Below, piece by piece: positions 19,082-60,831 of a stretch of 64,000 nucleotides of DNA. Each line of letters begins with the position of its first letter. Position 1 is the first letter of the stretch. The stretch comes from Rhizobium grahamii (GTDB taxonomy: Bacteria > Pseudomonadota > Alphaproteobacteria > Rhizobiales > Rhizobiaceae), in the NCBI RefSeq assembly GCF_009498215.1, contig NZ_CP043498.1, positions 744,001-808,000 on the forward strand, given 5' to 3'. The notes beneath the pieces are model-generated. The model saw only the letters and a program-made list of their open reading frames with translations, did no database searches and had not been told where the DNA came from. The position numbers were made by a program, and so were the translations under genes.

Positions 19082-19876
19082 TCATTCAAATTTCAGTTTT
19101 TTTTCAGTGTGTGGCGAATCGGTTAGCATCATCGTCGCAGCGAAGACGACGAGCGATGACAGCCATCCAAGCATGACGTCGGAAAGGTAGTGGGCGCCGA
19201 ATGAAAGCCGCAGAAGCGCCACCAGCAGGGAAATGGCGCCCATCGGCACGATGGCTGCGGCCCGCAAATGGCGCGGTACAAGAAACGCAAGGCAGAACAG
19301 CCAGCCTGCCGCTGCCGCCTCTCCGGAGACGAACGAACAGTTCGTGAGGCATTTCCCGGCCATGGAGCCCGCCTGGACGAAGTCGAATGGTCCGCCGAAA
19401 TCGATGGTCTGCGAGGGTCGCGGACGCCCCCAGTAACTCTTTAGTACGACGTTCACGAGGAGAATCGGCCCGAGGACGAGCGACGAAAGCGCGATCCTCA
19501 AAGCGCGGGCTCGGACGGCGTTGAATGTCGCGCCATACTCCTCGTAGCAGGCAAACAGCTTCCAGAGCATGGCGATCGCAATCAGATAGGGCAGGCGGAA
19601 GAGAAACGATCGAACGGCACGCAGCGCCGACTCGCTTCGATAGGGAAAGCTTCCGCAATGTTCTTTCAGCGATCCGTCGAGACAGGTCTTCGCCCTGAAG
19701 AACTGTTCCGCAACGTAGAGATCCAGCGAGGGGAACAGGTTGAAGAAGATCAGCAGCGCAAACCACGCGGAAAACAGAAGGAAAAAAGCGTGAGTTGCCC
19801 TGTTCGGGCCAGGCTCGCCAAACGTCGCCAACAGGCTTTTAGCGTCAGATATCATCGCCGAAGACACAGGGTTCAT
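19082..19876 (-). CDS. PAP2-family membrane phosphatase with altered motif 2
   Basis: A 264-residue protein with about six membrane helices. The three phosphatase motifs are recognisable: K146-x6-R153-P154 (KSYWGRPRP), motif 2 SFVSGEAA (181-188) and motif 3 R223-x5-H229-x3-D233. Motif 2 has Glu186 where the classical PSGH has His, so the proton-donor site is changed while the nucleophile His229 is kept. Substrates in the family include lipid A phosphates, phosphatidylglycerol phosphate and undecaprenyl pyrophosphate; the location beside the lpt operon suggests an envelope lipid, but this is inference. Confidence 0.82.
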   Translation of the reverse strand: MNPVSSAMISDAKSLLATFGEPGPNRATHAFFLLFSAWFALLIFFNLFPSLDLYVAEQFFRAKTCLDGSLKEHCGSFPYRSESALRAVRSFLFRLPYLIAIAMLWKLFACYEEYGATFNAVRARALRIALSSLVLGPILLVNVVLKSYWGRPRPSQTIDFGGPFDFVQAGSMAGKCLTNCSFVSGEAAAAGWLFCLAFLVPRHLRAAAIVPMGAISLLVALLRLSFGAHYLSDVMLGWLSSLVVFAATMMLTDSPHTEKKLKFE

Positions 19877-20032
19877 GGTTGCCCTGGATCATGGGCAACC
19901 AAAATGACACGCGTTTGAATGTCGGCGGGGTGACAAGAGCGGCATAGGTCGTCGCATCGTCTTGTTTTCGACGCTGAAACCCGAAATGATGCGGGCAGAG
20001 AGGATTTCCCAAAGAATCCCACTGGAGAAGAC

Positions 20033-21532
20033 ATGTCAGCTAAGTTCGAGATATCGTTTGAAAAGACCGCGGAACCATCAGGCGGATACGCAATCCTTCT
20101 GAAGGCCAGCGAGGCCGAAACCGCTGCCGGCGCCAAGGTGGTCGACCCGGCGTCGGTGATCGCCAGAGCCTCCAAAGTCGCCGGTTTCAGCGCAAAGCTT
20201 GCGACCGCGCTCGACATCGTTGCGCCAGAAGGCTCGGCAGCGGAACGAATCTTTGTGATCGGGCTTGGGAAGCCAGGCAGCCTGGCGACTCATGACTGGC
20301 TGAAAGTGGGCGGAGCCTCCGCGTCGAAGATCAAGAACGCCAGCTCGGTCACGATCTTCCTCGACGCCCCTGACGTCGAAGTTGGTCCACAACAGGCGGC
20401 GGACTTCGCGCTCGGCATGCTGCTGCGCGCCTACAGCTTCGACACATACAAGACAAAGAAGGCGGACGAAGAAACTGCCGGCAAGTCGCGAAACGAACCG
20501 ACCAAGGTGGTCATCGTAACGGCAGCTGCCCGCGAGGCGGCTGAAATATTTAAGGTGTCGCAGGCGGTTGCCGGTGGTGTGAACCTGGCGCGCGATCTGG
20601 TCAACGAGCCGCCGAATGTTTTGGGACCAGTGGAATTTGCTGCCAAGGCGAAGGAACTCGAGGCGCTCGGCGTCGAGGTTGAGGTGCTGACGGAGCAGGA
20701 AATGCAGAAGCTCGGCATGGGCGCGCTTCTCGGCGTCGCTCAGGGCTCCGTACGCCCGCCGAGGCTCGCCATCATGCAGTGGAAAGGCGGCAAGAGCGGA
20801 GAGAAGCCTGTTGCCTTCATCGGCAAGGGCGTCGTCTTCGACACGGGTGGCATCTCCATCAAGCCCGCCGCCGGCATGGAAGACATGAAGGGCGACATGG
20901 GCGGAGCCGCCGCCGTCACCGGACTTATGCACGTGCTTGCAGCGCGCAAGGCCGCGGCCAACGTCGTCGGCATCATCGGGCTTGTGGAAAACATGCCTGA
21001 CGGCAACGCCCAGCGTCCAGGCGATATCGTGACGTCGATGTCCGGCCAGACGATCGAGGTGATCAACACCGATGCCGAAGGCCGCCTCGTGCTTTGCGAT
21101 GCCCTCTGGTATTGCAACGACCGCTTCAAGCCCAAGTTCATGATCAACCTGGCAACGTTGACCGGTGCGATTCTCGTTGCGCTTGGCAATGTGCACGCAG
21201 GCCTGTTCTCGAACGACGACGAGCTCTCCGAGCAGCTGACCGCTGCCGGGCTCGTCACGCGCGAGAAGCTGTGGCGCATGCCTATGGGCAAGGAATACGA
21301 CAAGATGATCGACAGCAAGTTCGCCGACATGAAGAACACCGGCGGCCGTCACGCGGGCTCGATCACTGCCGCACACTTCCTCAAGCGCTTCGTGCAGGAC
21401 ACGCCCTGGGCGCATCTCGACATCGCCGGGACCGCGATGGGGTCTCCTCTCGATGAGATCAACCAGTCCTGGGGTTCCGGTTTCGGCGTGCGGCTGCTCG
21501 ACGAGCTCGTGCGCGCCAACTACGAATCATGA
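20033..21532 (+). CDS. pepA: Cytosolic leucyl aminopeptidase (M17)
   Basis: A 499-residue M17 aminopeptidase. All two-metal site residues are present and align with E. coli PepA at a constant offset: Lys265, Asp270, Lys277, Asp288, Asp347, Glu349, plus Arg351 in the NTDAEGRL signature. The N-terminal 165 residues form the variable domain that in E. coli also binds DNA. It removes N-terminal residues from peptides. It is divergent from the PAP2 gene across 156 nt, and its stop overlaps the holC start (ATGA). Confidence 0.97.
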
Positions 21533-27628: not shown

Positions 27629-27819
27629 TTCCACTCCTCGATCTGCTCTTCGAACCGATCATAGGACGATTTCGCCTGATCGGTAGTGATGACGCCATGA
27701 AAATTGATGATGGCTTCCGAGCGTGCGACACTGGCGTGAAATTACCGGTCCCCCTTGTTTTCAGGCAATCGGACGGGTAAACACCGCCCACTTTTCCCCG
27801 ATAACTGAGGATTATTACA

Positions 27820-45910: not shown

Positions 45911-45940
45911 TTGACCATTCTCTCAGCCACATCCTATGTG
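45911..45940 (+). promoter_or_regulatory. Candidate promoter of the perM-hdaA operon
   Basis: TTGACC (45911-45916) and TATGTG (45935-45940) are 18 nt apart, 59 nt upstream of the permease start. It is the best sigma-70-like pair in the 244-nt purM/perM divergent spacer. Confidence 0.45.
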
Positions 45941-45998
45941 CACCAAGGCTGCATCGCGACGATGCGGAAATCGAGACCGTCGATCAGCGGGGAATATG

Positions 45999-47120
45999 AT
46001 GCCACAGCAGGTTAGCGGGGCGGGTCTGAAGCGCCAGGTCATCTTCTGGCTGATCGTGCTCGCCTTCTTCATTGGTTTCCTCTTCGTCTTCAGCTCGATC
46101 CTGCTGCCGTTTCTTGCGGGCATGGCGCTCGCTTATTTCCTCGATCCGGTGGCGGACCGGCTGGAGCGCTTCGGCTTGAGTCGCCTAATGGCCACGATCG
46201 TCATCCTGATCGCCTTCATCGTGATGATCGTGCTGGCCCTGATGATCCTGATACCGGTCCTTGCCAGCCAGCTGAGCGACTTCGCCGGCCGTCTGCCGGG
46301 GTACATCGATCAGCTGCAGACCTTCATCGCCAAGTCGCAGAATTCGCTCTTGCCTGAATGGGTTCGCAACCAGCTCGGAACGATCAAGAACAATTTCTCA
46401 GAGATCCTCTCGCAGGGCTTCGGACTGCTCACCGGGCTTTTCGGTCAGGTATGGAGTTCCGGCCTTGCCGTCGTCAACGTCATCTCGCTCATGGTCGTCA
46501 CCCCGGTTGTCGCCTTCTACATGCTGCTTGACTGGGATCGAATGGTCTCGAAGGTCGATCAGTACATACCGCGGGACTATGTCGCCAACGTCCACCAGAT
46601 CGCGCGCGAAATCGACCAGGCGATCGCGGGTTTCATCCGCGGGCAGGGCTCTCTCTGCTTGATCCTGGGCATCTGGTACGCGGTCGGCCTCTCGCTCGTC
46701 GGCCTGAATTTCGGCCTGCTGATCGGCCTCTTCGCGGGCATGATCAGCTTCATCCCTTACGTCGGCTCGATGGTCGGACTGGTGCTCGCCGTTGGCGTCG
46801 CCATCGTACAGTTCTGGCCGGATTACATCTGGGTCGGGGCCGTGCTTGCCGTCTTCTTCAGCGGGCAGTTCATGGAAGGCAATATCCTGCAGCCGAAGCT
46901 CGTCGGGCATAGTGTTGGCCTTCACCCCGTCTGGCTGATGTTTGCGCTCTTTGCCTTCGGCGCGCTGTTCGGTTTTGTCGGCCTCCTGGTGGCCGTTCCG
47001 GCCGCTGCGGCCGTTGGCGTGCTTGTCCGTTTTGCGCTTTCACGCTACCTTGAGAGCGATCTTTATGCGGGCGGGTCGAAAACTGGCCAGGTTCGCAGGA
47101 CAAAAGCTGACCCTAAATGA
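45999..47120 (+). CDS. AI-2E (PerM) family membrane protein
   Basis: A 373-residue membrane protein of the AI-2E/PerM family with about seven to eight helices. GGGGA 5 nt before ATG 45999 favours it over the ATG one codon earlier. The signature stretch is FDWDR-like LLDWDRMVSKVDQYIPRDYV (about residues 175-195), followed by FIRGQGSLCLILGIWYAVGLSLVG and the C-terminal PKLVGHSVGLHPVWLMFALFAFGALFGFVGLLVAVPAAA. Members are proposed exporters of small molecules, including TqsA, or Na+/H+ antiporters. In many alphaproteobacteria this gene precedes hdaA, and here their ends overlap (ATGA). Confidence 0.92.
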   Translation: MPQQVSGAGLKRQVIFWLIVLAFFIGFLFVFSSILLPFLAGMALAYFLDPVADRLERFGLSRLMATIVILIAFIVMIVLALMILIPVLASQLSDFAGRLPGYIDQLQTFIAKSQNSLLPEWVRNQLGTIKNNFSEILSQGFGLLTGLFGQVWSSGLAVVNVISLMVVTPVVAFYMLLDWDRMVSKVDQYIPRDYVANVHQIAREIDQAIAGFIRGQGSLCLILGIWYAVGLSLVGLNFGLLIGLFAGMISFIPYVGSMVGLVLAVGVAIVQFWPDYIWVGAVLAVFFSGQFMEGNILQPKLVGHSVGLHPVWLMFALFAFGALFGFVGLLVAVPAAAAVGVLVRFALSRYLESDLYAGGSKTGQVRRTKADPK

Positions 47121-47830
47121 ACGAAGTGAAGAATGCTGGTTCCAGGCGCGTCGCAGTGGAACAGATCCCGTTGGCCTTTTCGCACGCCGCCGCAAGCGGT
47201 CGCGACGATCTCTTGATCTCCGAACGCCTGGCTGCAGCTGTCGCGATCGTCGATGCCTGGCCGCAATGGCCGTCGCCTGTCGTTATCCTCGCCGGTCCCG
47301 TGGGCTCGGGCAAATCGCATCTTGCCAATATCTGGAAGCAGCATAGCGGCGCCGTCGATATCCAGCCGGCCAAGGGAGCGTACGCCGCCGTCAGCGCCGC
47401 CAACGGGCCGGTGCTCTTCGAGGACGTCGACCGGGTCGGCTTCGATGACAATGAGCTTTTCCACGTCATCAACAGTGTTCGCGAAAACGGACACAGCCTT
47501 CTGATGACAAGCCGCCTCTGGCCGATGTCCTGGGCTGTCGAGTTGCCCGACCTGCGTTCCCGGCTGAAGGCCGCGACCGTGGTGGAGATCGGCGAGCCTG
47601 ACGAGGAACTCCTCTGTCAGGTGATCGTGAAGCTCTTCGCCGACCGGCAGCTTAATATAGACGACAAACTCGTGCTCTATATCGTTAATCGAATGGAGCG
47701 CTCGTTGAATGCCGCGCAGACGATCGTCGAAAGACTGGACCGGCTGGCGCTCTCTCGAGGCACGAAAATCAGTCGCACTCTTGCGGCCGAAGTGTTGAAT
47801 GAATTGGGCAATTCCGGCGCGGCTGATTGA
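47117..47830 (+). CDS. hdaA: DnaA-related regulatory inactivator (HdaA)
   Basis: A 237-residue DnaA-like AAA+ protein lacking the DnaA DNA-binding domain IV. The N terminus carries EQIPLAF (about residues 15-21), resembling the clamp-binding motif that lets Hda dock on the sliding clamp. Walker A is GPVGSGKSH (about 60-68), Walker B VLFEDVDR. Sensor II region includes NRMERSLNAAQTIVERLD. Hda stimulates ATP hydrolysis by DnaA after initiation, limiting replication to once per cycle; in Caulobacter HdaA has this role. It overlaps the permease gene by four bases, and ppk follows. Confidence 0.92.
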   Translation: MNEVKNAGSRRVAVEQIPLAFSHAAASGRDDLLISERLAAAVAIVDAWPQWPSPVVILAGPVGSGKSHLANIWKQHSGAVDIQPAKGAYAAVSAANGPVLFEDVDRVGFDDNELFHVINSVRENGHSLLMTSRLWPMSWAVELPDLRSRLKAATVVEIGEPDEELLCQVIVKLFADRQLNIDDKLVLYIVNRMERSLNAAQTIVERLDRLALSRGTKISRTLAAEVLNELGNSGAAD

Positions 47831-47862
47831 CTGTCACAGTTCCGTCGTGAAACTGATATAAT
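47831..47862 (+). promoter_or_regulatory. Candidate PHO box and -10 element of ppk
   Basis: Directly after the hdaA stop come CTGTCAC-AGTT-CCGTCGT-GAAA-CTGATAT, three seven-base units with an 11-nt period, the first two forming an 18-nt PhoB-type box (consensus CTGTCAT repeats). A perfect TATAAT -10 (47857-47862) begins 8 nt after the second unit, where PhoB normally replaces a -35. ppk starts 34 nt downstream. Confidence 0.65.
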
Positions 47863-47895
47863 TCGCAAAGCGAGTGAAAACGGGGCAATTGGACA

Positions 47896-50100
47896 ATGGA
47901 CAGCGCAGTCGCGGGGCACAACGAACCTACTCCTGAAGCGAAGGAGACGGTGTTGCCGCTCGAAGAGCTGCTTTCCAGCCCGGAGCGTTTCATCAACCGC
48001 GAATTCTCGTGGCTGCAGTTCAACCGGCGCGTCCTTGAGGAAACGCTGAACACCGAGCATCCGCTGCTCGAGCGCGTTCGCTTCCTGTCGATCTCGGCCG
48101 CCAACCTCGATGAATTCTTCATGGTGCGCGTTGCCGGTCTTGAAGGGCAGGTGCGCCAGAACATCGTCGTTCGCACGCCTGACGGCAAGACGCCCGCCGA
48201 GCAGCTCGACGCCATCCTGCAGGAGATCGATAACCTGCAGATGGAGCAGCAGGCCTCGCTGGCGGTCCTGCAGCAATATCTTGCCAAGGAAGATATCCTG
48301 ATCGTCCGTCCGGGCGCACTCAGTGAAACCGATCGCAACTGGCTCGCGACCGAATTCGAGCAGGCGATCTTCCCGGTGCTGACGCCGCTGTCGATCGACC
48401 CGGCCCATCCGTTCCCCTTCATCCCGAACCTCGGCTTCTCCATAGGCCTGCAGCTGGTCAGCAAGAATGGCCGCGAGCCGATGACGGCGTTGCTGCGCCT
48501 GCCACCGGCGCTCGATCGTTTCGTGCGCCTGCCCGATGATGGCAATACGATCCGCTACATCACGCTCGAGGACGTCGCCAATATCTTCATCTACCGGCTC
48601 TACCCGGGCTACGAGGTGCAGGGCTCCGGTACGTTCCGCATCATCCGCGACAGCGATATTGAAGTCGAGGAAGAAGCAGAAGATCTCGTCCGCTTCTTCG
48701 AAACGGCGCTCAAGCGCCGCCGCCGCGGTTCGGTCATCCGACTCGAAACCGATTCCGAAATGCCGGCATCGCTGCGCCAGTTCGTGGTTCAGGCGACAAA
48801 CGTGCCCGATAACCGCGTGGCCGTTCTGCCGGGCTTGCTAGCCCTGAACACGCTGTCTGAGATCACCAAGGCGCCGCGCGACGATCTGCGTTTCCCCTCT
48901 TACAATGCGCGATTTCCAGAACGCGTCCGTGAACACGCCGGCGATTGCTTCGCCGCCATCCGCGAAAAGGACATGGTGGTTCACCACCCCTACGAGTCCT
49001 TCGACGTGGTGGTCCAGTTTCTGCTTCAGGCTGCACGCGATCCTGACGTCCTGGCGATAAAGCAGACGCTCTACCGCACCTCCAACGACAGCCCGATCGT
49101 GCGCGCACTGATCGACGCGGCCGAATCCGGCAAGTCGGTGACGGCGCTGGTCGAGCTGAAGGCGCGTTTCGACGAGGAAGCCAACATCCGCTGGGCGCGC
49201 GACCTCGAACGCGCCGGCGTGCAGGTCGTCTTCGGTTTCATCGAACTGAAGACCCACTCGAAGATGTCGCTGGTCGTGCGCCGCGAAGAGGGCAAGCTGC
49301 GCAGCTACTGCCATCTCGGCACCGGCAACTATCACCCGATCACCGCGAAGATCTATACCGACCTGTCGTTCTTCACCTGCAATCCGGTGATTGCCCACGA
49401 CATGGCCAATATCTTCAACTTCATCACCGGCTATGGCGAGCCGGAGGAGAGCATGAAGCTCGCCGTATCGCCCTATACGCTGCGCTCGCGCATCCTTCGT
49501 CACATCGACGAAGAGATCAAGCACGCCAAGAACGGCGCGCCGGCCGCCATCTGGATGAAGATGAACTCGCTCGTCGATCCCGAAATCATCGACGCGCTCT
49601 ATACGGCGAGCCACGCCGGCGTCGAAATCGATCTCGTCATTCGCGGTATCTGCTGCCTGCGCCCGCAGGTGCCCGGCCTGTCGGAAAACATCCGCGTCAA
49701 GTCGATCGTCGGCCGCTTCCTCGAACACAGCCGTATCTTCTGCTTCGGCAACGGTCACGGTCTGCCTTCGGACAAGGCGCTGGTCTATATCGGCTCCGCC
49801 GACATGATGCCGAGAAACCTCGATCGCCGTGTCGAAACGCTGGTTCCGCTAACCAATCCGACCGTGCACGAGCAGGTTTTGTCACAGATCATGCTGGGCA
49901 ACCTCATTGACAATCAACAGAGCTACGAGATATTGGCCGACGGGACGTCAAGGCGCATGGAGGTGCGCAAGGGCGAGGAGCCGTTCAACGCGCAACAGTA
50001 TTTCATGACCAATCCCAGCCTTTCGGGCCGTGGTGAAGCGTTGAAATCCAGTGCGCCAAAGCTGATCGCCGGCCTGCTTTCTGGCCGAAACAACAAGTAA
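47896..50100 (+). CDS. ppk: Polyphosphate kinase 1
   Basis: A 734-residue PPK1 making polyphosphate from ATP. The N-terminal domain begins with [18 protein letters not shown] (about residues 32-49). His454 ([12 protein letters not shown]) is the autophosphorylation site by analogy to E. coli His435, and His611 ([11 protein letters not shown]) corresponds to the second conserved His. The phospholipase-D-like C-terminal domains and [17 protein letters not shown] are present. It is 12 nt before ppx, so synthesis and breakdown of polyphosphate are probably one operon. It appears phosphate-regulated from the upstream box. Confidence 0.97.
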
Positions 50101-50112
50101 TATTGGACCTTC

Positions 50113-51636
50113 ATGGTTGAATCAGAAGCCCAGGGGCGCCTTCCAGGCATTGCCCCGGTCTCCGTTGTCGATATCGGGTCGAACTCGATCCGTCTGGTGA
50201 TATACGAAGGTATGTCCCGCTCGCCGACGATCCTTTTCAACGAAAAGGTACTTTGCGGCCTCGGCAAGGGCATCGCCCTGACGGGCAAGATGGACGAGGC
50301 GAGCGTCGAGCGTGCACTGACGGCGCTTCATCGGTTCAAGGCGCTTTCCGATCAGGCGCGTGCGGCAACGATGTACGTGCTGGCGACTGCTGCGGCGCGT
50401 GAGGCATCCAACGGTCCTGACTTCATCCACAGCGCCGAGACGATCCTGGGACGCAGGGTCCGCGTTCTCTCAGGTGAAGAGGAAGCCAAGTTCTCGGCTC
50501 TCGGCATCGTCAGCGGCTTCTTCGCGCCGGACGGCATCGCGGGTGATCTCGGCGGCGGTTCGCTGGAGCTCATCGACATCAAGGGCAAGGAGATCGGCAA
50601 GGGCATAACCCTGCCACTCGGTGGCCTTCGGCTGTCGGAATACGCCGGCGGCTCGCTCGAGAAGGCCCGCACGTTTGCCCGCAAACACGTCAAGACGAGC
50701 GCGAAGCTGCTCGCCCAAGGCGCCGGGCGAACCTTCTACGCCGTTGGCGGCACCTGGCGAAACATCGCGAAGCTTCACATGGAGATGACGCAGTATCCGC
50801 TGCACATGATGCAGGGCTACGAGGTGTCGCTGGAAGCCCTGATGCAGTTCCTTGATCAGGTCGAGGCTGCCAAGGACTCGAAAGATCCCGCGTGGATGGC
50901 CGTCTCCAAGCACCGTCGTGCGCTGCTTCCCTTCGGCGCCGTCGCGATGAAGGAAGTGCTGAGCGTCATGAAGCCCTCTGTCATCTCCTTCTCCGGGCAG
51001 GGCGTGCGCGAAGGCTATCTGTATTCATTGCTCTCGGAGAGCGAGCGCCGCAGCGACCCACTGCTGGCCGCAGCCGGCGAGCTTGCCATCCTGCGTGCAC
51101 GTTCGCCCGAACACGCTCGCGAGCTCGCTGACTGGACCGGTCGCATGATGCCATGCTTTGGGATCGTCGAGACGGAAGAGGAGGCACGCTATCGTCAGGC
51201 CGCCTGTCTTCTCGCCGACATCAGTTGGCGCGCACATCCGGACTACCGCGGCCTTCAGGCGTTGAACATCATCGCCCATTCCTCTTTCGTCGGCATCAGC
51301 CACCCCGGACGCGCCTTCATCGCGCTGACCAACTATTACCGCTTCGAAGGTCCGCATGACGATGGCGCGACCGAACCGCTCGCCGCGATCGCCACGCCGC
51401 AATATGTCGAGCGCGCCAAGCTGCTCGGCGGCATTTTGCGCGTCGTCTATCTCTTCTCCGCTTCGATGCCCGGTGTCGTCCGCAATCTGAGCTTCCAGAA
51501 ATCGTCGAACCCGGATATCGATCTGGAGTTCGTCGTTCCCGCCGAATATCACGATTTCGCCGGCGAACGTCTGGATGGACGCCTGCAGCAGCTGTCGAAG
51601 CTCACCAACAAGCGCCTCGCCTTCCGCTTCGAGTAA
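50113..51636 (+). CDS. ppx: Exopolyphosphatase (Ppx/GppA family)
   Basis: A 507-residue ASKHA-fold phosphatase. The N-terminal VVDIGSNSIRLVIYEG (about residues 16-31), ATAAAREASNG, the LSGEEEAKFSALG loop with its catalytic Glu, and GDLGGGSLELIDI are all canonical. The extended C-terminal half is the HD-like domain of long Ppx proteins. It degrades polyphosphate from the ends; members of the family may also hydrolyse pppGpp. It follows ppk by 12 nt. Confidence 0.95.
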   Translation: MVESEAQGRLPGIAPVSVVDIGSNSIRLVIYEGMSRSPTILFNEKVLCGLGKGIALTGKMDEASVERALTALHRFKALSDQARAATMYVLATAAAREASNGPDFIHSAETILGRRVRVLSGEEEAKFSALGIVSGFFAPDGIAGDLGGGSLELIDIKGKEIGKGITLPLGGLRLSEYAGGSLEKARTFARKHVKTSAKLLAQGAGRTFYAVGGTWRNIAKLHMEMTQYPLHMMQGYEVSLEALMQFLDQVEAAKDSKDPAWMAVSKHRRALLPFGAVAMKEVLSVMKPSVISFSGQGVREGYLYSLLSESERRSDPLLAAAGELAILRARSPEHARELADWTGRMMPCFGIVETEEEARYRQAACLLADISWRAHPDYRGLQALNIIAHSSFVGISHPGRAFIALTNYYRFEGPHDDGATEPLAAIATPQYVERAKLLGGILRVVYLFSASMPGVVRNLSFQKSSNPDIDLEFVVPAEYHDFAGERLDGRLQQLSKLTNKRLAFRFE

Positions 51637-59357: not shown

Positions 59358-59440
59358 CTCAATTCATTCGCAGGATAGACATAGTTGAACCTTCCTTCTC
59401 CTTTCGGCCGGATATGTCAACTAGAACCCGCAAAGAGCTG

Positions 59441-60831
59441 TCAAACAACTCTCACATAACTGGTCATGCCGGTCTTTTGATGCTCGATGATGTGGCAATG
59501 CAGCAACCAATCGCCGGGATTGTCGGCCACGAAGGCGAGCTGCACCTTTTCGTCCGGCTGAACGAGATAGGTGTCACTGACGAAAGGCATGACCTCGCGC
59601 GTCGATGAGGAGAGCACGGTAAAGCTCATGCCGTGCAGGTGGATCGGATGCGTGTGCGGCGTCACGTTCTCGAGCTGCAGGATATAGCTCTTGCCGAGCT
59701 TCAATTCCGCCAGCGGTGCCGTCGGATCGGGCGTGTCGCCTGGCCACGGGACCTTGTTGATCGCCCAAAAACTGTAGCCAAGCGTGCCGCAGATGCTGTC
59801 GGCCGGTGCGCTCTCTGCCGTGGCGCTTAGAATGAGGGGAATTTTCTGTGCCGAGGAAAGGTCGGCCTTGGCGACCGGGTTTTCACCAAGCGCTGCAAGA
59901 TCGCCGGCATTGCGCTTCAACGACGTTCCAACGGCCTTGAGCTTGGCGATCGTCTTTGGCGTGGTGCCTCTGATATCCTCGAGCGTCGCAACAGCGCCTT
60001 CGCTATCAGGCATACGTACGGCGAGATCGAGACGTTGCCCAGGGCCGATCAAAAGCAGATCGAGCGGAAAGCGCTTCGGCACGGGATTGCCATCGATCGC
60101 AATGACCGTCGCTTCCGCCCCTTCCATCTTCAGCGAGAAGATGCGAGTAACGTCCGTCACCGCAACCCGCAGCCGTATAAGACCGCCCGCCGGCGCATCA
60201 TATTGCGGCTCCGGATGCCAGTTGGCCGTGCGCACCGTTCCGTAAGTGCCGGTCTTTGCCGCATCGCGCGGCCGGAACGGCGCAATGAACTGGCCATCAC
60301 TGCCGAGGCGCCAGTCCCGCAGGTTCAGCACCACTTCGGCATCGAACTTCGGATCGCCGGGATCCTCCACCACCAGAACCCCGTCATGCCGTGACCCATC
60401 TGTGTCAGCGTATTGCAATGCGGGTGATACCAGAAGGTACCGGCGTCCGGCGGAGTGAAGGCATAGTCGAAGCTGTCGCCGGTATAGACGTAGGGCTGCG
60501 TCATGAATGGCACGCCATCCATCTTGTTGGCGATTCTCAGGCCATGCCAGTGGATTGTCGTCGGCTCGTCGAGTGTATTCGTCAGCCGCGCCGCATAGGG
60601 TTTGCCCTTTGTCATCCGAAGCACCGGCGGCATGCTGCCGTCGCCCCAGGTCATGATGTCTTTCGTCACACCGGAATCGGCAATGCTGGCCGTCGTCTTG
60701 ATCGCCTTCAGCACCTGCGGTTCGGGTGCCGCTTCCGCCAGTCCGAACTTGCCGGCGACGCCGATCCCGACGCCGTAAGCACCTGCGACGGCAGAGGCTT
60801 TCAGGAGATTGCGACGGGTGAGAAGGGGCAT
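59441..60831 (-). pseudogene. Frameshifted twin-arginine multicopper oxidase
   Basis: The first 150 codons from ATG 60831 encode a Tat signal (TRRNLLK near residue 5) and cupredoxin domains with the copper ligands HWHG (94-97) and WYHPH (135-138). After GHGMT the frame ends in unrelated sequence, while a second frame continues VLVVEDPGDPKFDAEVVL to the C terminus with HTHPIHLHG and HCHIIEHQKTGM. Adding one base to the four-C run at 60379-60382 (four G on the coding strand) restores a 463-residue protein. All four Cu sites are thus intact on both sides. Family members oxidise Cu(I), metals or phenols in the periplasm. A recent mutation or an assembly error in a G run explains it. Confidence 0.88.

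Follow-up and report, generated by a model that had tools for sequence, protein, structure and literature searches.

The window analysed here, a stretch of 64,000 nucleotides from Rhizobium grahamii, covers positions C1:744001-808000 of a 5.89 Mb genome, and the nearest named relatives in the ppk comparison are Rhizobium species. It contains four consecutive genes, all on the plus strand, in the order AI-2E family (perM-like) transporter, hdaA, ppk and ppx. The hdaA stop codon directly adjoins the box considered below (hdaA end 47830, box start 47831). Since ppx starts only 12 nt past the ppk stop, it is plausible that ppx shares the promoter of ppk. The features of the locus are:

45936-47120, plus strand: AI-2E family transporter (perM-like; PF01594, E 4.1e-65), with a 4-nt overlap with hdaA
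47117-47830, plus strand: hdaA, DnaA regulatory inactivator (NF006571, 368.6 bits, cut-off 297)
47831-47837, plus strand: half-site U1, CTGTCAC, 7/7 to CTGTCAY
47842-47848, plus strand: half-site U2, CCGTCGT, at an 11-nt period, 5/7 to CTGTCAY
47849-47855, plus strand: conserved spacer GAAACTG, including the CTG that is the conserved part of the proposed third repeat
47853-47859, plus strand: proposed third repeat (U3) of the initial annotation, CTGATAT, 5/7 to CTGTCAY
47857-47862, plus strand: TATAAT hexamer named in the initial annotation (alternative -10 register, gap 8)
47859-47864, plus strand: likely -10 region, with the conserved TA at 47859-47860, 10 nt after U2
47896-50100, plus strand: ppk, polyphosphate kinase 1 (TIGR03705, E 1.6e-284, 945.6 bits, cut-off 465.85)
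50113-51636, plus strand: ppx, exopolyphosphatase (TIGR03706, 319.6 bits, cut-off 307)

A predicted PHO box between hdaA and ppk

A PHO box consists, according to the part of the source consulted, of two copies of CTGTCAT spaced by 4 nt (PMC3131613). Upstream of ppk, two direct 7-nt repeats are joined by the 4-nt linker AGTT and agree with the consensus at 12/14 positions; the second unit alone reaches 5/7 and departs from the consensus at positions 2 and 6, which are nevertheless conserved. A further linker, GAAA, separates U2 from the third 7-mer, which overlaps TATAAT by 3 nt. The initial annotation had reported these three 7-mers and the hexamer, and its sequences and coordinates are all correct in the window.

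As a bare motif and without conservation, the box is unremarkable and not beyond chance. With up to two mismatches, the pattern CTGTCAYN4CTGTCAY finds 98 matches in the 5.89 Mb genome versus 48 for a reversed-pattern control, a frequency of about one per 64 kb. The window itself holds one more match, at 59438-59455 on the plus strand (two mismatches), located at the 3' end of a minus-strand ORF and probably due to chance. The same genome scan gave candidates at expected places, namely upstream of pstS (3895227), phnG (3627801) and a ugpB-like gene (3724093), the last name being a reading of a short stretch rather than the result of a family search. One PhoB above the family cut-off is encoded in the genome (C1:3900972; TIGR02154, 341.6 bits, cut-off 296.2), about 5 kb downstream of pstS. 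As a separate observation, the family match of phnG in this genome (C1:3627927-3628348) is split into two segments that overlap, 3627927-3628058 and 3628052-3628348, which may reflect a frameshift or an error in the sequence.

Conservation of the block in related species

The box becomes credible through its conservation across relatives and not through its sequence alone. At most nine mismatches to a 29-nt consensus were found in 63/80 relatives, the 80 being the top-ranking ones of 591 confirmed. None of 1528 control segments, each 330 nt long and taken from these loci, reached this level, and their best value, 11 mismatches, occurred in three segments. As the 29-nt reference is the consensus of the relatives themselves, closeness to it is partly given by construction; the contrast with the control segments and the permutation test described below do not depend on this construction alone. 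These locus counts are also not independent, because the relatives share ancestry.

More than nine mismatches were observed in 17/80 relatives (best 80 of 591). Nine of the 17 were unanchored (L062, L066, L072, L073, L076-L080), six of them from Mesorhizobium, which leaves 71 anchored loci. Eight of these 71 carry 11 to 13 mismatches and overlap the control distribution; they include three loci of the Brucella group (L068, L074, L075) that were anchored one unit off and whose own register gives a TA at gap 10. The region upstream of ppk in these three (Ochrobactrum, Falsochrobactrum and Brucella grignonensis) also holds a perfect 14-nt palindrome, CTGTCATATGACAG, whose first half is followed 10 nt later by a TA. 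Five Mesorhizobium loci without the block (L072, L073, L076, L077, L079) have a common stretch, AAACTGTCGCAAAA, 157-246 nt before the ppk match start.

Position by position, conservation follows the two half-sites and the spacer. Across 69 distinct relatives, U1 positions 2-7 hold 1.09-1.89 bits. In U2, position 2 is mostly C (71 percent) or T (23 percent) and position 6 is G in 90 percent; native PhoB units have an A at position 6, which U2 lacks in nearly all relatives. The first three positions of the proposed third repeat are C, T and G in 78, 96 and 93 percent of relatives, and its positions 4-6 are weak (0.07, 0.46 and 0.89 bits), whereas 17 of the 25 positions spanning U1.1-U3.3 hold at least 1.27 bits. 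The conserved run extends from U1 to the CTG of the spacer, followed by three weaker positions, a near-invariant TA and then decay. Of the three repeats with an 11-nt period originally proposed, U1 and U2 hold, whereas the third overlaps the -10 region and is kept mainly as CTG; it consists of this CTG and a portion of the -10.

Within the genus, the 25-mer is found exactly once per genome in 31/31 genomes (three mismatches allowed), with no match for the reversed control, and 30 of these 31 sites were checked, each being 60-66 nt upstream of the extrapolated start of ppk. It occurs in 3/199 genomes of the order, all from the genus of the window, and in 0/4 genomes sampled from the rest of the family. 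Among the ppk relatives, the block is intact in other genera, for example Agrobacterium and Sinorhizobium.

The position of the block relative to the hdaA stop varies among loci: in the 61 well-matched loci with hdaA found, 46 have it directly at the stop codon, 13 have it 1-102 nt further on and two show a 9-nt overlap. Its distance from the start of the ppk match reaches 202 nt (in L054). Therefore, the block is not kept as part of hdaA, and it is conserved as DNA and not through hdaA coding constraint.

The block further contains the inverted repeat CAGTT-N9-AACTG, which would allow a dyad operator or an RNA leader element to be the conserved feature. The arms are fully paired in 29/71 loci, in one of them via a compensated change (CAGAT with ATCTG), but 42/71 lack a full dyad and eight other loci have CAGGA or CAGAA as first arm next to an unchanged AACTG. 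On the RNA side, no Rfam match was found in 47000-48200 and the fold is ordinary (z -0.44). We therefore regard this explanation as extremely unlikely.

Spacing between the box and the likely -10 region

A TA exactly 10 nt past U2 is present in 59/63 well-matched ppk loci and in 65/71 anchored ones, compared with a TA background of 1.7 percent of window positions. In a count that covered phnG and phnC, the same gap was found in 29/29 phnG and 20/20 phnC loci with a recognisable box, while another 1 and 10 loci, respectively, lack such a box; in E. coli phoA, counted by eye, the gap is also 10 nt. This spacing test is the most telling evidence for a PhoB site.

The initial annotation had placed a perfect TATAAT at the -10 position of PhoB-dependent promoters. 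The hexamer is indeed present, but it begins 8 nt after U2 and hence 2 nt early. Its inner TA sits at the Pho position and is kept, whereas the exact hexamer at the gap-8 place is found in only 12/71 anchored relatives (TA at gap 8: 39/71), and Sinorhizobium meliloti (L064) has GGGGTAGC in its place. These counts also bear on the idea that the region is a constitutive sigma-70 promoter (GTCACA, 18 nt, TATAAT, extended -10 TG) merely resembling a Pho box. Such an arrangement can be read in the window with 10/12 matches and a TG before the second hexamer (one found versus 0.3 expected). However, it is the box core and one TA that are fixed among relatives rather than the hexamer, and a conserved block of 25 nt is more than a bare promoter requires, so that we consider this reading very unlikely.

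The predicted ppk promoter is like the E. coli phoA type of PhoB-dependent sigma-70 promoters in its two 7-nt half-sites, its 11-nt period, its 10-nt gap to the TA of the -10 and its lack of a good -35 element. In contrast to this type, ppk has the off-consensus second half-site CCGTCGT and a conserved CTG in the spacer. For S. meliloti, published PhoB box predictions overlap the -35 region in 16/33 genes with start sites.

Scores against a rhizobial PhoB matrix

A PhoB matrix was built from same-genus upstream regions, using 30/30 pstS, 29/30 phnG and 20/30 phnC loci; the remaining loci had no site under the rule applied, and in one pstS locus (L171) the anchor falls one unit further on than in the rest. 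The matrix was anchored on the consensus and is thus not free of prior knowledge, while ppk was outside the training set. A de novo motif search was dropped: it recovered Pho-like repeats in pstS, phnC and the pooled set, but an unrelated motif in phnG.

Scoring with such a matrix had been suggested along with the initial annotation. The ppk box obtains 8.9, a value equalled or exceeded at 11/127,964 window positions, the box included (10 higher). This is not comparable to the native Pho boxes, whose medians are 21.1 for pstS, 20.2 for phnG and 19.3 for phnC (minima 12.8, 4.4 and 4.1), in a comparison that favours these genes because they trained the matrix and that measures strength rather than strictly defining a site. 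When a TA is required 10 nt downstream, two of the 11 top positions remain, 47831 and 42692. With U1 fixed and linkers of 1-8 nt tried, 4 nt is best (median 8.9; linker 1 gives 7.5 and linker 7 gives 6.2).

Ranked by matrix score over both strands of its own locus (usually 7.2 kb), the block has a median rank of 2 and comes fourth or better in 58/71 anchored loci. Out of 200 column-permuted matrices, one reaches the median rank and none reaches the count; for the U1-U2 register alone, 0/200 reach the median and 0/200 the count. The rank test used the anchored block only, as the top upstream matches of L035 and L037 fall in hdaA and not in the box.

Two other places in the window score high on the minus strand. 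The top score, 13.5, belongs to 27725-27742, which lies within a minus-strand ORF, has no TA at gap 10 and is probably a chance match. Two overlapping matches (10.6 and 9.1), also without TA at gap 10, are found at 19904-19936, upstream of the minus-strand ORF 19082-19876 and inside the minus-strand ORF 19873-20217, as a possible weak Pho-like site.

The strength of the box varies considerably among relatives. Among the divergent relatives, some carry high-scoring boxes (L061, 19.85; L063, 15.25; L003, 15.16), and that of L061 is about as strong as those of known Pho genes. In L003, L024, L029, L041 and L047, the second unit differs yet is nearer to the consensus. Degenerate boxes are found in L020, L022, L023, L038 and L071, with best upstream scores below 3.3 and none with a TA at gap 10.

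The low score in the window raises the question of whether the conserved block could be the site of another activator, either for a starvation induction independent of PhoB or for another OmpR-family regulator with an 11-nt tandem site. The main reason for giving this view any weight is Caulobacter ppk1, which is reported, in the portion of the publication consulted, to be starvation-induced but PhoB-independent and to respond to cytoplasmic phosphate (PMC11208175). In addition, the off-consensus bases of U2 (C at position 2, G at position 6) and the linker bases are strictly kept in the ppk block, and L020, L022, L023 and L071 keep a recognisable block (six to eight mismatches) at very low PhoB scores. 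Against it, the TA spacing is the same as in phnG and phnC, the PhoB matrix beats nearly all permuted matrices, and L003, L024, L029, L041, L047 and L061 have units nearer to the Pho consensus or an extra unit. For ChvI in particular, the comparison covered the Caulobacter consensus TTGC-N3-GCAA, as given in the section of the source consulted; the block does not contain it, and no TTGC occurs in 47826-47870. Overall, we consider another activator unlikely.

Compared with the pstS, phnG and phnC promoters of the same genus, the ppk region shares the half-site period and, with phnG and phnC, the TA at gap 10. It differs from them in its score (8.9 versus medians of 19-21) and has linker sequences of its own.

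Promoter model and transcription of ppk

Taken together, we predict 47831-47864 to be a PhoB-activated sigma-70 promoter for ppk, and probably also for ppx, with a probability of about 0.8. A PhoB box with promoter before ppk, as initially proposed, is backed by the conservation, the native Pho spacing and the PhoB encoded in the genome, while its geometry and the third repeat had to be revised. Given the strong conservation of this DNA among related species, the candidate phosphate-starvation promoter is very probably real. It is of the ordinary PhoB type, which is well supported, and does not represent a novel system.

Established knowledge of PhoB promoters suggests how binding, activation, start site and co-transcription of ppx would work here. 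Upon phosphate starvation, PhoR would phosphorylate PhoB, and a PhoB dimer would bind the tandem half-sites CTGTCAC-AGTT-CCGTCGT, standing in for the -35 element. RNA polymerase would recognise the -10 region (about 47859-47864), with its conserved TA 10 nt downstream of U2, and transcription would start at about 47870, so that the leader before the ppk start at 47896 would be short, with ppx presumably co-transcribed. As the second half-site is off-consensus, we infer that activation of ppk is likely to be weaker or later than that of pstS, giving a modest or late response.

The initial annotation had also assumed that the perM-hdaA transcript ends just before the box, which would make ppk independent of it. 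This assumption is unsupported: a simple consensus scan found no terminator-like site between 47830 and 47896, and the sole such site in 46800-48300 lies inside perM (47035-47058), at chance level (one found versus 2.0 expected in shuffles). Since no terminator was found and the hdaA stop adjoins the box, readthrough from hdaA into ppk is possible and the independence of ppk is unproven. Such readthrough may supply a basal level of ppk.

A more elaborate version of the PhoB model would see the ppk box as a deliberately weakened composite site, read by PhoB together with a second regulator or through direct polymerase contact. This joint reading would have kept CCGTCGT and the CAAACTG spacer near-unchanged across much of the family. 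We regard this as quite improbable; if true, polyphosphate synthesis would begin only in one specific phase of phosphate stress.

Polyphosphate synthesis and phosphate starvation

According to the part of a review that was consulted, most bacteria induce Ppk under phosphate starvation (PMC4415409), and excerpts of another study list S. meliloti 'ppk' among phosphorus genes up-regulated under predation (PMC10315480). For S. meliloti, the sections of PMC3596328 consulted name 'ppk' among the Pho-regulon family genes induced in a PII mutant, in likeness to the promoter predicted here; they cite Krol and Becker for the PhoB dependence of such genes, and ppk's own box is absent from this text section. 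The identity of 'ppk' in these papers is uncertain, because S. meliloti also has a PPK2, SMc02148 (as stated in the part of PMC3163519 consulted), and the listed gene could be this PPK2 rather than PPK1.

We take SMc00618 to be the S. meliloti ppk. Our literature search, with Yuan 2006 and Krol and Becker 2004 outside its coverage, found no publication on this ppk promoter, which is no proof of absence.

Caulobacter ppk1 is likewise an alphaproteobacterial ppk induced by phosphate starvation, but according to the portion of the publication consulted it is PhoB-independent (PMC11208175), whereas the rhizobial ppk box reads as PhoB type. This contrast between the two promoters is experimentally testable. 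Polyphosphate synthesis under phosphate shortage seems paradoxical, and the conserved promoter would mean that selection has acted in much of the family on the link between ppk and the phosphate response.
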